Positions 38,569 through 44,491 of a stretch of DNA of 50,479 bases are shown here, piece after piece. The notes beneath the pieces are model-generated. The model was not told where the DNA came from. It searched no databases and saw nothing but the letters and a program-made list of their open reading frames with translations. Position numbers and translations under genes: made by a program. The DNA is from Acidobacteriota bacterium. Lineage in GTDB: Bacteria; Acidobacteriota; UBA4820; DSQY01. Where the stretch lies: NCBI GenBank assembly GCA_021787565.1, contig JAJYLT010000027.1, positions 1 to 50,479 on the forward strand, given 5' to 3'. Each line of letters begins with the position of its first letter. Position 1 is the first letter of the stretch.

Positions 38569-39718
38569 GCTGCATACCCCTTCCCAGCGGACATCGCCCC
38601 AGCTCCGCGCGCAACGCCCCCTCCAGGGTCGGATGGAGATGAGAGAACCCGCTCTCCGCCAACCGGCGCGGCAGGACCCGGGCGCTCTCCAGGAGCAGCG
38701 CCCGGCCCATCTCTCCGAAGAGCAGGCGGACCCCCGCCGCGGGCAGCGGGAGGAGGGCCGGCCTGTGCAGCAGCCGGGCCAAGGTGTGCGTGAACTCCCG
38801 GTTGGTCACGGGCGCGGGCGCCACGACGTTCACGGGCCCTGACAGACTCTCCGTGAAGAGCGCGTACTGGATCGCCCCGAGCAGATCCTCGAGGGCGATC
38901 CAGCTCATGCCCTGGCTCCCGCTGCCCACTACGCCCCCCAATCCCAGCCGGAAGGGGGTCAGCATGCGGGCGAGGGCCCCTCCCCTCGCGGAGAGGACCA
39001 CGCCGATACGGAGGTGCACGACCCGGATGCCAGCCGATCGCGCGGGATCGGCGGCCGCCTCCCAGGCCTCGCAGACTTCGGGGAGAAATCCGTTGCCCCT
39101 CTGGGCGCTCTCGTCCACCTCGCGGTCGCCCGTGTCTCCGTAAAAGCCGATGGCGGAGGCGCAGACCAGCACGCGCGGCGGCCGCTTCAAGGAGGCCAGG
39201 GACGTGGCCATCAGGCGGGTTCCTTCAACCCGGCTCTCGCGGATGAGGGTCTTGGCCGCGGGGCTCCAGCGTCCCTCGGCGATGCTGCGCCCGGCCAGAT
39301 GCACCACCGCATCCACGCCCTCCAGGGCCGCAAGGTCCACGCACCCGGAGGCGGGATCCCACGCGATCTCCTGATGGGACACGGCTGCCCGGCGCACCAG
39401 ACGCTGAACGCGGTGGCCGCCGGCGGAGAGGAAGGCCGCCAGGGCCGAGCCGACGAGGCCCGTAGCGCCCGTGACGGCCACCCGCTGCGGCCCAAACCGG
39501 GCGAAGGCGGCGTGCCGGGCGAGGTCGTCCCGCGTCCTTTGGTGCCGGACGGCGAAGCGGAGCCGACTCCCCTCGGCCAGCCCCGCCCGATCCTCCTCCA
39601 CGCGCACCGACTCCCATGGGGGAACGAGCCGCTCGAACGCACCCGGGCGCAGATGCCAGGCGAACAGGGCCTCCGGGGAGATTCCCGCGATGTGGCTGCG
39701 GTAGGTGAATTCGGCCAT
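38558..39718 (-). CDS. TIGR01777 epimerase-like protein with shortened SRPBCC domain
   Basis: The 386-residue protein has a C-terminal TIGR01777 (SDR39U1) Rossmann domain. It shows RVAVTGATGLVGSALAAFLSAGGHRVQRLVRR, DAVVHLAGRSIAEGRW, RVLVCASAIGFYGDTGDREVDE and GSGSQGMSWIALEDLLGAIQ. Fused forms of this family carry a complete SRPBCC lipid-binding domain of about 140 residues in front. Here only its start is present (FTYRSHIAGISPEALFAWHLRPGAFERLVPPWESVRV, to about residue 53), followed at once by its end (RHQRTRDDLARHAAF). About 80-90 residues seem to be missing in frame. It lies 25 bases after the helicase-nuclease gene. Function is unknown; a nucleotide-sugar or lipid-linked substrate is possible. 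Confidence 0.88.
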   Translation of the reverse strand: MAEFTYRSHIAGISPEALFAWHLRPGAFERLVPPWESVRVEEDRAGLAEGSRLRFAVRHQRTRDDLARHAAFARFGPQRVAVTGATGLVGSALAAFLSAGGHRVQRLVRRAAVSHQEIAWDPASGCVDLAALEGVDAVVHLAGRSIAEGRWSPAAKTLIRESRVEGTRLMATSLASLKRPPRVLVCASAIGFYGDTGDREVDESAQRGNGFLPEVCEAWEAAADPARSAGIRVVHLRIGVVLSARGGALARMLTPFRLGLGGVVGSGSQGMSWIALEDLLGAIQYALFTESLSGPVNVVAPAPVTNREFTHTLARLLHRPALLPLPAAGVRLLFGEMGRALLLESARVLPRRLAESGFSHLHPTLEGALRAELGRCPLGRGMQHGP

Positions 39719-39743
39719 GCTCAGCCCTTTCCCGGAGCCGCCT

Positions 39744-42629
39744 TCAGGACTGCCCCCATCCCCCGATGCTCACCCTCAACAGCTCCCCCATCTTGCCCCG
39801 GAAAAGGAGATAGCCGTCCTCCAGCCCTTTGCGGTACAGCATGCCGGTCAGTTCCACGTCCCGCTTGCAGTACTGCTCGATGAGGTCGAAGCGCCCCTCC
39901 CTGTACCACTGGACCGACTGGACGCCGTCGGACGACTTGGACTCGCCGAAATTGGACTCGGCCAGGCTCGCCAGGGAGAGCCGGAAACCCAACCTGCCCT
40001 TCAGCACCTCCAGGAGGTCCAGCGTCCGGACCTGGCGCAGGTCCCGCGAGGTGTAAGGCCGGACCACCTCGAGGTCAAACCGGTTGATGTTGAACCCGAT
40101 CACCAGCGGCGACGCCAACAGATCCTCGACCAGCTCTCCGGCTTCCTCCTCAAAATAGGTCCGCCAGGCGTCCCGGTCCAGGTCCCAGGTCACCGCCAGG
40201 GCCAGCCCCAGGGCCCGGATGTTGCCCCAACCGCCCACCTCGGCGGCCAGCCTCTGGGTCTCCACGTCCCAGACGAGCCGGCCAGGGGCGATCCGGCGTT
40301 TCTGGGACCGATGGCTAGGGTGCTCCGCGGGCGCCTCCGCGGGAGGCTGGACCGGGGAGGGCGCGTCCAAGGGAAGCCTCCCCTCGAGAACGTCCGCGAT
40401 GACGAGGGCCGCCGCCTTGTCGAGGGGCTTGTTGCCGTTGCCGCACTTGGGGGACTGGATGCACGCCGGACAGCCCAGCTCGCAGGGGCAGTCCCGCACC
40501 ACACGCGCCGTGGCCTCCAGCAGGGACTCGAAGAGATCGTACCCCTTGCGGCAGAGCCCGGCCCCGCCGGGATAGCCGTCGTAGATGAAGACGGCCGGCC
40601 CTCCCACCTGCGGGTGGAGCGGGTAGCTGATCCCGCCCAGGTCCCAGCGGTCAGCCAGGGCCAGCAGGGGGAAGATGCCGATGAGGGCGTGTTCGAGGGC
40701 GTGAATGCCCCCCATGAGGTGCAGGCCCCGCCCGCTGAGGAGCCCGGCGATCCCCGGAGGGATCGAGATCCAGAGCCCCTCCGTCTCCAGGATCAGGGGA
40801 GGCGCCTCGAGGGGGGTCTCGGCGAAGGCCTCCCCCCCGGCCATCTTTCGTTTCACGAAGGAGTGCAGGATCTCGGTGACCTTCAGCCGGCCCAGGCTCA
40901 GCTGGTAGGGGCCGACGGACCGGGTTGCGGTCACTTCGATGATCTCCGTCTCCTTGTCGCTGTGCACCTCCGTGTAGTAATCGGTGTGCACGGCCTCCAC
41001 CACGACCTTCCTGTCCTTGGGGATCAGCGAGACGGCCCGGTAGGTCTGGCCCTGGTGGAGGTAGATGGCCCCCTCGTGGCACTCGCGGTAGACCCTGTGA
41101 CCGTCCACGTTGCCCACCGCCTTGCCGGAGGCGAGCTGGATGGTAAACCCTTCGCCGATGGTCCGCAGGTTCACCTCGCGGTGAGGATTACGGCGCAGGG
41201 AGTGCCAGTGGGTCCCGGCGGCGTCCAGCAGCAGTTCTCCGCTCTCATCCAGCGCCTCCAGGGCCTCCCGCTCCGCTCCGCCCGAGGGAATGGCCGCATC
41301 CTCCAGGGGAAGCTCCCGGGCCGCACAGAGCAGGTGCGAGGCCACGATGTGGGGATTCGCCGGGTCCAAGACCAGCTCCTCCATCCGCCGGTCCAGCAAC
41401 TGGTCGGGATGGGCCACGAAGTACTGGTCCAGGGCATCGGGCATGGCGATCAGGAAGATGTCCGCCTCCCTCTCGCCGCGCCCCACCCGGCCCATGCGCT
41501 GATGGAGGGAGATGAGCGAGCCCGGATACCCGACCAGGATGCACGCGTCGAGGCCTCCCACGTCGATGCCCGTTTCCATCGCGGACGTGCTCACCACGCC
41601 GAGCAGGGATCCGTCGAAGAAGGCCTGCTCTATCTTCCGCCTCTCGGAGGGAAGAAAGCCGGCCCTGTAAGAGGAAACGCTCTTGCGGTAGGCGGGATTC
41701 CTCTGGCAGAGCCACGAGTAGACCAGCTCCGTCACCCGGCGCGCCTTGGTGAAGGCAAGGGTTCGCGCCCCTTCGGCCAGCAGACGGTCCATCACCTCGC
41801 AGGCGAGCGTGTAGGGGCTGCCGCTGGCGTTCATCAGGAAAAGCCGCCGGCCCGGCCTGGGGGCCCCGCTCACCTCCGTCAGGGCCGCCTCCCGCCCCGT
41901 CAACCGGCGGTAGAAGTCCAGCGGAGAGGCCATGGTGGCCGAGGTGGCCACCCAGAGCGGACGAGCCCCTTCGTGGTCGAGGATCCTCTGGGTCCGCTTC
42001 AGGACGTGGTGGACGTGTGCGCCGAACACGCCGCGGTAGACGTGCGCCTCATCCAGCACCAGCGCGCTCAACCGGCGAAAGAAGGGCGTCCAGTTTTCGC
42101 AGTAGGCGAGAAAGGCGAGGTGCAGCATGTCGGGGTTGGTGAAGAGCACCGGTGGCGGGTCCTTCTGGAGCTTTCGGCGCTGGCCGGAGGGGGTGTCCCC
42201 GTCATAGATGGCCGCCGAGAAGCCCTCAAAGCCCAGGCGCCCGGCCAGCTCGTTCAATTTGATGCACTGGTCCTGGGCAAGCGCCTTATAGGGGTAGAGG
42301 AAGAGGGCCCTCGCAGAAGGGTCCTTCAGCCACGCATCCAGGGCCGCCACTTGGTAGATGAGGCTCTTGCCGCTGGCCGTGGGGGTGCACACCAGCAGGT
42401 CCCGGCCGGAGAGGAGGTGCTCAATGCCCTCCACCTGGTGAGAATAGAGACGGGCGAGGCCAACTCCCTCAAGGGCTCTTGCCAGGTCGGGATGGAGGCC
42501 CTCCGGCAGGGCCGCCCTTCGCCCCCCGGTAGCCGGCAGGTCGTAGCGGGCGCGGATGTTGGTGCCCAGATCTGGATCGTTCTGAGGGTCTGCAAGAAAA
42601 GCGTCTCTGGGGGCCCTCGCGCGTCGCAC
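39744..42629 (-). CDS. MrfA-type DEAH helicase fused to MrfB-type exonuclease
   Basis: The 961-residue protein joins two enzymes. Residues about 40-770 are an Hrq1/MrfA-type superfamily 2 helicase: LYSHQVEGIEHLL, Walker A TPTASGKS (Lys88), DEAH at 193, VATSATMASP, QRMGRVGRGER, then the C-terminal zinc cluster CPCELGCPACIQSPKCGNG (from Cys714). Residues about 780-940 are a DEDDy RNase H-like exonuclease: VWDVETQ (Asp788, Glu790), VIGFNINRFDLEVV and YCKRDVELT (Tyr920, Asp924). In Bacillus, MrfA and MrfB are separate proteins repairing mitomycin-type DNA lesions. I chose the GTG at 42629 with AAAGGA seven bases upstream; a GTG at 42656 is the alternative. It is the fourth gene of a leftward operon. 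Confidence 0.92.
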   Translation of the reverse strand: MRRARAPRDAFLADPQNDPDLGTNIRARYDLPATGGRRAALPEGLHPDLARALEGVGLARLYSHQVEGIEHLLSGRDLLVCTPTASGKSLIYQVAALDAWLKDPSARALFLYPYKALAQDQCIKLNELAGRLGFEGFSAAIYDGDTPSGQRRKLQKDPPPVLFTNPDMLHLAFLAYCENWTPFFRRLSALVLDEAHVYRGVFGAHVHHVLKRTQRILDHEGARPLWVATSATMASPLDFYRRLTGREAALTEVSGAPRPGRRLFLMNASGSPYTLACEVMDRLLAEGARTLAFTKARRVTELVYSWLCQRNPAYRKSVSSYRAGFLPSERRKIEQAFFDGSLLGVVSTSAMETGIDVGGLDACILVGYPGSLISLHQRMGRVGRGEREADIFLIAMPDALDQYFVAHPDQLLDRRMEELVLDPANPHIVASHLLCAARELPLEDAAIPSGGAEREALEALDESGELLLDAAGTHWHSLRRNPHREVNLRTIGEGFTIQLASGKAVGNVDGHRVYRECHEGAIYLHQGQTYRAVSLIPKDRKVVVEAVHTDYYTEVHSDKETEIIEVTATRSVGPYQLSLGRLKVTEILHSFVKRKMAGGEAFAETPLEAPPLILETEGLWISIPPGIAGLLSGRGLHLMGGIHALEHALIGIFPLLALADRWDLGGISYPLHPQVGGPAVFIYDGYPGGAGLCRKGYDLFESLLEATARVVRDCPCELGCPACIQSPKCGNGNKPLDKAAALVIADVLEGRLPLDAPSPVQPPAEAPAEHPSHRSQKRRIAPGRLVWDVETQRLAAEVGGWGNIRALGLALAVTWDLDRDAWRTYFEEEAGELVEDLLASPLVIGFNINRFDLEVVRPYTSRDLRQVRTLDLLEVLKGRLGFRLSLASLAESNFGESKSSDGVQSVQWYREGRFDLIEQYCKRDVELTGMLYRKGLEDGYLLFRGKMGELLRVSIGGWGQS

Positions 42630-42673
42630 GGTGGGATCCTTTGCCTGGAGACTCACGCCGCCCGCGGCGGGGG

Positions 42674-43111
42674 CTACTCCTCGGGTTGCAGCATTTTGCG
42701 GAAGTAGAGGATGTCCCCGCGCTTCTCGTAGCCCTCCGCCTCGAAGAGCTCCATGCTGGCTTCGTTCCAATCTTCAATGAGGCAACAGCAGAGGAGCCTC
42801 TGCCGCTTGCGGAAGACCTGCTCGCAGTAGTCCACCAGCGCCTTGGCGACACCCTTGCGGCGGTAGGCGGGACGGACGGCCATCCGGTTGATCCAGCCCT
42901 TGCGGCCATCGTCGGTGCCCAGGGCCACGCCTATCATGGCCTCGCCCACGAATGCGCCCACGAGGAAGGTCGAGCCGCCCGCCAGCTCCTGGGTCATGAG
43001 GCCGATGGAATCTCTTCCCTTCGGCTTGAAGGGAAGACCCGATTCCTTCCAAAGCGAGAACACGTCGATGAGATCGTTGGCGCCCAGGGGGCGCAGCTTC
43101 ATTCGTTCCAT
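42674..43111 (-). CDS. GNAT family N-acetyltransferase
   Basis: The 145-residue protein shows the GNAT fold: MKLRPLGANDLIDVFSLWKESGL at the start, FLVGAFVGEAMIGVALGTDDGRKGWINRMAVRPAYRRKGVAKALVDYCEQVFRKR in the middle. RxxGxA (RRKGVAKAL) is the acetyl-CoA pyrophosphate loop. LIEDWNEASMELFEAEGYEKRGDILYFRKML completes motif B. It transfers an acetyl group from acetyl-CoA to an unknown amine, protein or small molecule. A Cys-rich strand (LLCCCLI) is unusual. The ATG at 43111 follows a GAGAGG stretch. It lies between the TusA-like gene and the helicase gene with 53 and 44 bases of spacing. Confidence 0.88.
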   Translation of the reverse strand: MERMKLRPLGANDLIDVFSLWKESGLPFKPKGRDSIGLMTQELAGGSTFLVGAFVGEAMIGVALGTDDGRKGWINRMAVRPAYRRKGVAKALVDYCEQVFRKRQRLLCCCLIEDWNEASMELFEAEGYEKRGDILYFRKMLQPEE

Positions 43112-43164
43112 GCCCTGACCTCTCCTGGCCGAGGCCGGCCGCATCCGCCTGGCGCGACGGGACC

Positions 43165-43434
43165 TCAGCCCTGCTTCCGACGCAGGAAACTGCGCACCAC
43201 GCGGCCCTCCTGCCGGTATCCGAGCCACTCGTGGCCGGTGCTCTCGCAGAGGGCCGGGAAATCCGCCTTCACGCCCTGGTCGTCGGCCAGCACCTCCAGA
43301 AGCTGGCCGGGGCCCATTCCCGTCAACCGCGCCGAGGTTTTCACGACGGGCAGCGGACAGAGAAGTCCGCGCAGGTCCAGGAGGAGGTCACCAGAGCCTG
43401 GGCTGGGGGGTTCGCTCCTCTTCGTCTCCACCAC
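43165..43434 (-). CDS. TusA-like sulfur carrier protein
   Basis: The 89-residue protein carries the TusA/SirA signature LLLDLRGLLCPLPVVKTSARLTGMGPGQLLEVLADDQGVKADFPALCESTGHEW. The CPLP motif contains the cysteine that carries persulfide. TusA-like proteins pass sulfur for tRNA thiolation, molybdenum cofactor or sulfur metabolism. The C-terminus (YRQEGRVVRSFLRRKQG) is basic. I chose the first of two tandem GTG codons (43434), which has GAGG six bases upstream. It overlaps the end of the YhaM-like gene by 47 bases. A longer start at 43491 would add an Arg-rich extension and is less likely. Confidence 0.85.
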   Translation of the reverse strand: MVETKRSEPPSPGSGDLLLDLRGLLCPLPVVKTSARLTGMGPGQLLEVLADDQGVKADFPALCESTGHEWLGYRQEGRVVRSFLRRKQG

Positions 43435-44491
43435 GCTCCACCTCTTCAGCCTGGGGCGGCGGCCCCTCCGGTTCGGCGTTTCGCCGTTCACTTCCGCCGC
43501 CTCCGCCGGGGCGGACCCGATAATAACCCTTGCGGATGGGCCCGTTCCAGGGCGACGTGAACTCGCCGGCGGTCCCCGCCTCGTCCGCCCCCTCCAGCGC
43601 CGTCAAGCAGTGCTGGAGCTTGGCGTCCAGGTTATCCAGGTGATGAAAGAAGATGGCCTCCGGGGTCGAGGGATCGGCGGCGCTCCCGAAGCCCAGGTTG
43701 CGATCCCCCTGGTGGCTGAGCACCAGGTGAACGAGATGGCGCCGCTTCTCCTCCGGAAAGCCGGGACAGCCGTCACACAGCCGCTCAGTCAGCCTCGCCC
43801 CCATGTAGATGTGGCCCAGCAGCTTGCCGTCGGTGGTGTACTCGAAGCCGGGATTGGAGGAGATCTCGTAGATCTTGCCGATGTCGTGCAGGAAGCAGCC
43901 GCAGAGGAGAAGATCCACGTTCAGCCCGGGGTAGTTGGGAGCGAGGGCGCGAACGCCCCTGGACAGGGAGAGGGAGTGCTCCAGCAATCCCCCGATCCAG
44001 GGATGGTGGATGGCCTTGGCCGCGGGACCGGCGCAGAGGAGAGGGAAGGCCTCCCCATCGGCCAGGAGGCTCTCCAGCACGGCGCGGTAGTCCGCGTCCC
44101 GGGTGGTTCGGATGATGCCCTCAAACTCCGCGGTCATCTCGGCGGTGGTTCGACGGCTGCGCCGCGCGAACAGGGAGGGGTCCACCGAGCCGGGCTCGAC
44201 GGGCCAGACGGCCTGGAGGTTGAGCTGCGTCGAACCCTGGAAGGCGTCCGCTCTCGCCCTCAGGCGGATGGGTCCCCCTGGCTTGAGCGCCGGCTCCGCC
44301 GCCGCCACCCGCCCGCTCTTGCCGCCGGCGCTGTCCCAGAGCTTTCCGGACATGGACCCGGTGGCGTCCTGGAAGGTGCCCTCCCAGTAGGGATCCCCGT
44401 TCTTCGTCTTGCGCACCGCCCCCGAGACCAGCCATAGAACTCCCTCGAAGCTCTCACCCTCCCGCAGGTCGCGAAGGCCCTCCTGATTCAT
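43388..44491 (-). CDS. YhaM-like OB-fold/HD-domain 3'-5' exoribonuclease
   Basis: The 367-residue protein has an N-terminal OB-fold nucleic-acid-binding domain (FEGVLWLVSGAVRKTKNGDPYWEGTFQDATGSMSGKLW) and an HD domain. In the latter, IHHPWIGGLLEHSLSLSRG, DLLLCGCFLHDIGKIYE and RRHLVHLVLSHQG give the His and His-Asp metal ligands. This order matches YhaM/CBF1 exonucleases, which shorten RNA and some DNA from the 3' end. The last 60 residues are Gly/Glu/Arg/Pro-rich and probably disordered. The ATG at 44491 is preceded by AGGAGGAG. It is the first gene of a six-gene leftward operon, which places RNA or DNA processing beside the MrfAB-type enzyme. Confidence 0.88.
   Translation of the reverse strand: MNQEGLRDLREGESFEGVLWLVSGAVRKTKNGDPYWEGTFQDATGSMSGKLWDSAGGKSGRVAAAEPALKPGGPIRLRARADAFQGSTQLNLQAVWPVEPGSVDPSLFARRSRRTTAEMTAEFEGIIRTTRDADYRAVLESLLADGEAFPLLCAGPAAKAIHHPWIGGLLEHSLSLSRGVRALAPNYPGLNVDLLLCGCFLHDIGKIYEISSNPGFEYTTDGKLLGHIYMGARLTERLCDGCPGFPEEKRRHLVHLVLSHQGDRNLGFGSAADPSTPEAIFFHHLDNLDAKLQHCLTALEGADEAGTAGEFTSPWNGPIRKGYYRVRPGGGGGSERRNAEPEGPPPQAEEVERGGDEEERTPQPRLW

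Follow-up and report, generated by a model that had tools for sequence, protein, structure and literature searches.

A single-chain helicase-exonuclease of Acidobacteriota joins a YprA/MrfA-family helicase to a DEDDy exonuclease that is not MrfB

The analysed window, a stretch of 50,479 nucleotides of contig JAJYLT010000027.1 from an Acidobacteriota bacterium, carries on its minus strand a gene (39744..42629) for a helicase-exonuclease of 961 residues. The gene has a GTG start and a stop codon at 39744-39746, and a Shine-Dalgarno-like AAAGGA (42637..42642, minus strand) can be read from the sequence 7 bases 5′ of the GTG. Upon translation, the frame was open across all 961 residues with zero internal stops and with both enzymes intact, in agreement with the preliminary description of one uninterrupted protein. 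Full-length, stop-free orthologues support this gene model, and a chance ORF was ruled out by homology. The ORF on the plus strand (39705-42707) is an antisense shadow of the gene and was dropped.

Directly 5′ of the helicase gene and on the same strand, genes for a GNAT acetyltransferase, a TusA sulfurtransferase and an HD-domain protein are arranged head to tail (42674-44491, minus strand), and the helicase-exonuclease gene may be part of an operon with them. One flank, read on both strands, encodes a polysaccharide deacetylase, a large minus-strand protein without Pfam match and a NAD-dependent epimerase. No repair genes were found adjoining the helicase-exonuclease gene in the window, and no defence genes among its neighbours on either strand.

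The helicase half contains a RecA1/DEAD domain (residues 63-236, 41922..42443, minus strand; PF00270, 1.5e-29) with a PTASGKS Walker A motif at residues 83-89 and a DEAH box at 193-196, followed by a RecA2/Helicase_C domain (residues 279-384, 41478..41795, minus strand; PF00271, 8.5e-16). Next come a winged-helix domain of the HRQ1 type (WHD_HRQ1, residues 421-491, 41157..41369, minus strand; PF22982, 4.5e-8) and an MZB (DUF1998) zinc-binding domain (residues 645-724, 40458..40697, minus strand; PF09369, 1.4e-22), the latter scoring 80.6 bits against a cut-off of 24.2. In Pfam terms, this domain order is that of YprA/MrfA helicases. The cysteine cluster formed by C714, C716, C720, C723 and C729 (40443..40490, minus strand) is invariant in 31 fused homologues, as are K88, D193, E194 and H196. 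The Hrq1/MrfA-like helicase with a cysteine cluster from Cys714 that had been read from the letters was thus found again by profile and by conservation. The closest sequence in the PDB is B. subtilis MrfA (6znp, E 4.9e-125), and Foldseek with the helicase part gave 6znp, 6znq and 6zns as top matches (E 3.1e-68, 747 columns). By its motifs, MZB cysteines and fold, the helicase half is a member of the YprA/MrfA family.

The two halves are connected by a proline/alanine-rich linker (residues 756-779, 40293..40364, minus strand), which is predicted to be disordered (pLDDT <50) and varies among homologues. The spacing between C729 and D788 ranges from 52 to 135 residues in homologues with a median of 61, and such variation would be expected of a tether. 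In the AlphaFold model of the full chain, both parts were predicted with confidence (mean pLDDT 86), and values below 50 were seen only at residues 1-8, 350-356, 730-732 and 756-779. The exonuclease alone reached a mean pLDDT of 94.6.

The exonuclease occupies residues 784-955 (39765..40280, minus strand), with D788, E790, D852 (in FNINRFD), Y920 and D924 as catalytic residues, at the positions previously assigned. D788, E790, Y920 and D924 are invariant in the 31 fused homologues and D852 is conserved in at least 90% of them. Among 97 exonuclease domains of this family all catalytic positions are kept with the exception of one D852, and the YCxxD motif that marks the DEDDy type is present in 97/97. 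With the full chain, RNase_H_2 (residues 833-928) scored just under its cut-off (21.8 bits vs 22), and with the exonuclease domain alone it passed (25.8 bits, 1.1e-5). Profile searches therefore recovered the DEAD, Helicase_C, winged-helix and MZB domains as well as the exonuclease. Foldseek with the exonuclease gave, as nearest solved structures, the proofreading domains of T7 polymerase and of archaeal, phage and Pol II B-family polymerases. Searches of the PDB by sequence, with the exonuclease alone and with a profile of its family, gave no credible match, and NCBIfam has no model matching the exonuclease. By D-x-E, D, Y-x3-D and an RNase H-like fold, the exonuclease half is of the DEDDy type and belongs to the DnaQ superfamily.

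Among the genomes of the bacterium's own family, all six with a completeness above 90% carried the full fusion. Five relatives are 65-96% identical and stop-free, and no complete orthologue in the family has a stop codon in the 760-780 region. Three further genomes of the family do not have the full fusion; their completeness is only 86, 64 and 67%, and in one of them the helicase is cut by a contig end. In addition, the exonuclease profile matched 74 of 396 sampled Acidobacteriota genomes, which were classed from helicase content, co-location with MZB and re-fetched loci as 46 fused and 24 alone, with four left unclassed. Among 77 named loci, which were reached via two peptide motifs and are not a census, 49 are fused and 28 stand alone. 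The proposed count of fused against split forms could thus be made for Acidobacteriota and for the named loci, and the apparent split forms, in genomes G254 and G087, turned out to be contig breaks. Fused loci occur in Acidobacteriota, Thermodesulfobacteriota, Myxococcota, Latescibacterota, Zixibacteria, Glassbacteria and Firestonebacteria/FCPU426, so that the fusion is found in at least six phyla or candidate phyla besides Acidobacteriota. These data confirm that the helicase-exonuclease fusion is real and conserved, and no artefact. An exonuclease-only tree, read for one fusion versus a fusion plus a fission, gave two changes with a base support of 41/80 and favoured neither. In the chromosome CP070706.1 (loci L028 and L193, genome G334), the open frame of 758 residues covers only the last part of the helicase and the exonuclease; what precedes it in the helicase is either missing or in another frame, through mutation or sequencing error.

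Standalone loci are found mainly in Verrucomicrobiota, Nitrospirota, Nitrospinota, SAR324 and Ignavibacteriota. As a solitary gene, the exonuclease measures about 180-290 residues from stop to stop (L027, L033, L045, L053, L080, L082 and others, from Verrucomicrobiota, Nitrospinota, SAR324 and other groups). In 26 of 27 cases the standalone exonuclease occurs in a genome without any MZB helicase, and in six sampled genomes it is found together with MrfB. Its native role therefore need not be that of MrfB.

Next we compared the helicase half with other YprA-type helicases. In trees of 59 and 38 sequences, all fused helicases formed one 100/100 clade, although selection of the fused rows via their exonuclease biases towards monophyly of the fused label. 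This clade lies apart from B. subtilis MrfA together with the acidobacterial helicases adjacent to mrfB, from the actinobacterial SftH types and from the haloarchaeal helicases. The picture is backed by an MZB search of 297 genomes made without use of the exonuclease, in which the ORFs with strong matches either had the length of the fusion or were truncated at a contig end, and helicases of 750-920 residues accompany mrfB. As judged from these sequences, the helicase half does not belong to the MrfA orthologue clade that includes B. subtilis MrfA.

The preliminary description had gone further and called the protein MrfA joined to MrfB. A YprA/MrfA-type helicase and a DEDD exonuclease are indeed present in one chain, but the exonuclease is not MrfB and the helicase is placed outside the B. 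subtilis MrfA clade. B. subtilis MrfB is a DEDDh enzyme with His258 (PMC11194089), and in 26 acidobacterial MrfB domains H160-N161-D164 (HNxxD) is invariant. A C-terminal TPR region is a feature of MrfB in B. subtilis and Acidobacteriota (PMC11194089 and the sequences analysed here); the helicase-exonuclease chain is without it and ends at residue 961, 37 residues past D924. One classical acidobacterial MrfB matched B. subtilis MrfB (8un9) at 6.6e-36, and the fused exonuclease gave no match to MrfB when searched by sequence against the PDB. Moreover, an MrfB profile run on the source genome gave zero matches at 1e-20.

One could still argue for a literal fusion of MrfA and MrfB, in which the exonuclease would be an MrfB deprived of the TPR region and with tyrosine in place of histidine. 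PF13482 matches 62/63 domains of the fused family and 26/26 MrfB domains, both belong to the DnaQ/RNase_H_2 superfamily, and hhalign aligned MrfB with the fused exonuclease family at 95.7%. This alignment is, however, partial (114 columns, the first two thirds) and ends before the Y/H-D motif. H-N-x-x-D is invariant in MrfB and Y-C-x-x-D in the fused family. The best PF13482 score in the fused family is 2e-10, compared with 4e-44 in MrfB, and a third family of the superfamily gives MrfB a better alignment (E 9e-20) than the fused exonuclease does (3e-8). In Foldseek, the proofreading domains of T7 and B-family polymerases ranked first and 8un9 was absent among the best 50. Since MrfB, although DEDDh, is itself structurally near DEDDy enzymes, with B-family proofreading domains as its own nearest structures, and 8un9 represents an inactive state (PMC11194089), this fold test is supportive and not conclusive. 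The standalone exonuclease, finally, is already DEDDy in genomes without any MrfA. We therefore regard a literal fusion as improbable; by catalytic type, profile distance, fold and distribution, the fused exonuclease is of another family than MrfB.

A further DEDDy RNase_H_2 family of about 290 residues, with an AYNIQDVVNL motif, was observed at L119:1231-2094 and L126:1210-2097 and among PF13482 proteins of about 260-340 residues. By profile it is nearer to MrfB than the fused exonuclease is, and proteins of such sizes occur in several fused genomes.

PF13482 counts cannot separate MrfB from this family or from large multidomain proteins, and a PF13482 search of the source genome overlooked even the helicase-exonuclease protein at E<=1. 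A dedicated MrfB profile was therefore built. With it, mrfB was detected in 116 out of 396 Acidobacteriota genomes as a gene of its own, usually adjoining that of its MrfA; within the 297-genome subset, an MZB helicase accompanies mrfB in 86/88 genomes. All 46 fused genomes lack mrfB, although 13.5 with the gene would be expected if the two were independent (hypergeometric p 3.6e-8, a value inflated by shared ancestry within families). At the level of families, counted as such and not as independent events, 17 vs 35 families share none (p 4e-5). A 527-residue PF13482 protein of the fused genome G038 was considered as a candidate MrfB and rejected, as it had no match to the MrfB profile. The MrfB-specific profile covered Acidobacteriota; for fused genomes outside the phylum, a PF13482 check of 22 genomes, a few of them Acidobacteriota, gave only the proteins of about 290 residues, other PF13482 proteins and the fusion itself. 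The sampled Acidobacteriota genomes have either MrfA with MrfB or the fusion, and never the fusion with MrfB. Such a zero overlap is expected of functional alternatives, though common descent accounts for part of it.

The B. subtilis pair consists of a 3′→5′ helicase, MrfA, and a 3′-5′ exonuclease, MrfB, which act jointly on MMC adducts independently of UvrABC (PMC11194089, PMC12458937), and the two are thought to interact on the basis of two-hybrid data and AlphaFold-Multimer (PMC11194089). The fusion resembles this pair in having a YprA-type helicase with a winged helix, an OB-like region and an MZB domain, a DEDD 3′-5′ exonuclease as partner and no other MrfB in the genome. It differs in being one chain instead of two, in its DEDDy exonuclease of a non-MrfB family without TPR, and in the separate 100/100 clade of its helicase. 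Taken together, we consider it likely that the protein is a DNA-repair helicase-nuclease in one chain, fulfilling the task of MrfA and MrfB with a non-orthologous exonuclease. That a proofreading-like DEDDy exonuclease from outside the MrfB family was acquired, in replacement of MrfB, by a whole clade of YprA helicases present in Acidobacteriota, Thermodesulfobacteriota, Myxococcota and several candidate phyla seems slightly less certain, but still probable.

In such a mechanism, the YprA-type motor would bind a 3′ single strand close to a lesion and move along it 3′→5′, while the OB/MZB canopy would grip the DNA as in MrfA. Using two-metal chemistry, the DEDDy domain, held by its short flexible linker, could degrade the exposed strand from its 3′ end and thereby take out the damage. 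Motor and nuclease would have the same polarity in one chain, the one tracking 3′→5′ while the other trims from the 3′ end. The 3′→5′ polarity is suggested by analogy with MrfA and SftH, and the substrate is presumably DNA and not RNA. Physical coupling of unwinding and strand removal, as proposed in the preliminary description, can fairly be inferred from the fusion, and within this protein unwinding would be coupled to digestion. MMC-type or other bulky lesions are the presumed target; MMC is the only agent to which B. subtilis MrfAB responds, and the fusion may act on a different lesion. The source genome also encodes UvrA, so the fusion would be a parallel repair route.

WRN likewise combines a DEDDy exonuclease and a 3′→5′ helicase in one protein. 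A helicase with a DEDD 3′-5′ exonuclease in one chain is also known from the exonuclease-bearing DinG of S. aureus (Gao et al. 2025, PMC12345164). Unlike the fusion, these proteins have a RecQ or XPD-like helicase and an N-terminal exonuclease, and DinG in addition unwinds 5′→3′ and is DEDDh. By comparison with them, the fusion might serve general replication-fork or recombination intermediates instead of being a specialist for MMC-type lesions, in line with the proofreading-like character of its exonuclease in Foldseek and with UvrA in the host. We consider this rather unlikely, as the helicase is YprA-type and not RecQ or DinG, and the way in which fusion and MrfB exclude each other within the phylum suggests the niche of MrfAB.

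In TALON, too, a YprA helicase is followed by an RNase H fold at the C terminus, and among YprA helicases that bear a C-terminal nuclease many serve in defence (PMC12458937). An anti-phage or conflict role of this kind appears highly improbable for the fusion. The RNase H domain of TALON is inactivated, whereas all five catalytic residues are present here. TALON lies in a defence operon and has extra inserted domains; the fusion has no TOTE-like neighbours, and the genes that surround it (GNAT, TusA, HD-domain protein and NAD-dependent epimerase) are unrelated to defence. The 961 residues showed neither a BrxA-like insert nor extra zinc domains like those of defence-branch proteins, and the gene is stable, single-copy and family-wide, in contrast to patchy defence genes. 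The actinobacterial SftH proteins (YprA only, TIGR03817-type) are 37-39% identical to the helicase over residues 31-748, and TIGR03817 matches the helicase half at 6.7e-202, yet under its cut-off. In the one annotated SftH record that was examined, unlike in the fusion, no exonuclease is attached or adjoining.

When describing a tree, a preprint by Bell et al. 2025 (PMC12458937) refers in a single clause to YprA helicases 'fused to MrfB/YprB homologs', and these are very probably the same kind of protein. The main text of the preprint gives no sequences, distribution, domain identity or function for the fused form, and our data indicate that its nuclease is not MrfB. The literature examined contained no statement that the fused nuclease is of a different DEDDy family, nor that the fusion excludes mrfB.

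How B. subtilis MrfA and MrfB act jointly is still open (PMC11194089). As stoichiometry and tether are fixed in a single chain, both activities can be measured on one purified protein and separated through point mutations. If MrfB was indeed replaced by this exonuclease, the activity of MrfAB would have arisen at least twice, from different nuclease families, and a helicase with a 3′-5′ DEDD exonuclease would be a solution reached more than once in evolution. The MrfB-specific TPR region, histidine active site and N-terminal tail would then be dispensable for it. Annotations that name such proteins MrfAB fusions are misleading.

Other gene orders were also observed. At L198:1136-4830 (G067), an MrfB-like ORF of 400 aa lies 5′ of a 1124-residue helicase ORF and overlaps it from stop to stop, the reverse of the usual mrfA-mrfB order. 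On haloarchaeal plasmids (L185:882-4909 and L186:939-4918), a YprA-type helicase is encoded directly 3′ of an RNase H-like gene with IDIETDG and YCxxDV motifs. The product of this gene is apparently another DEDDy exonuclease, again in an order reverse to that of mrfAB.
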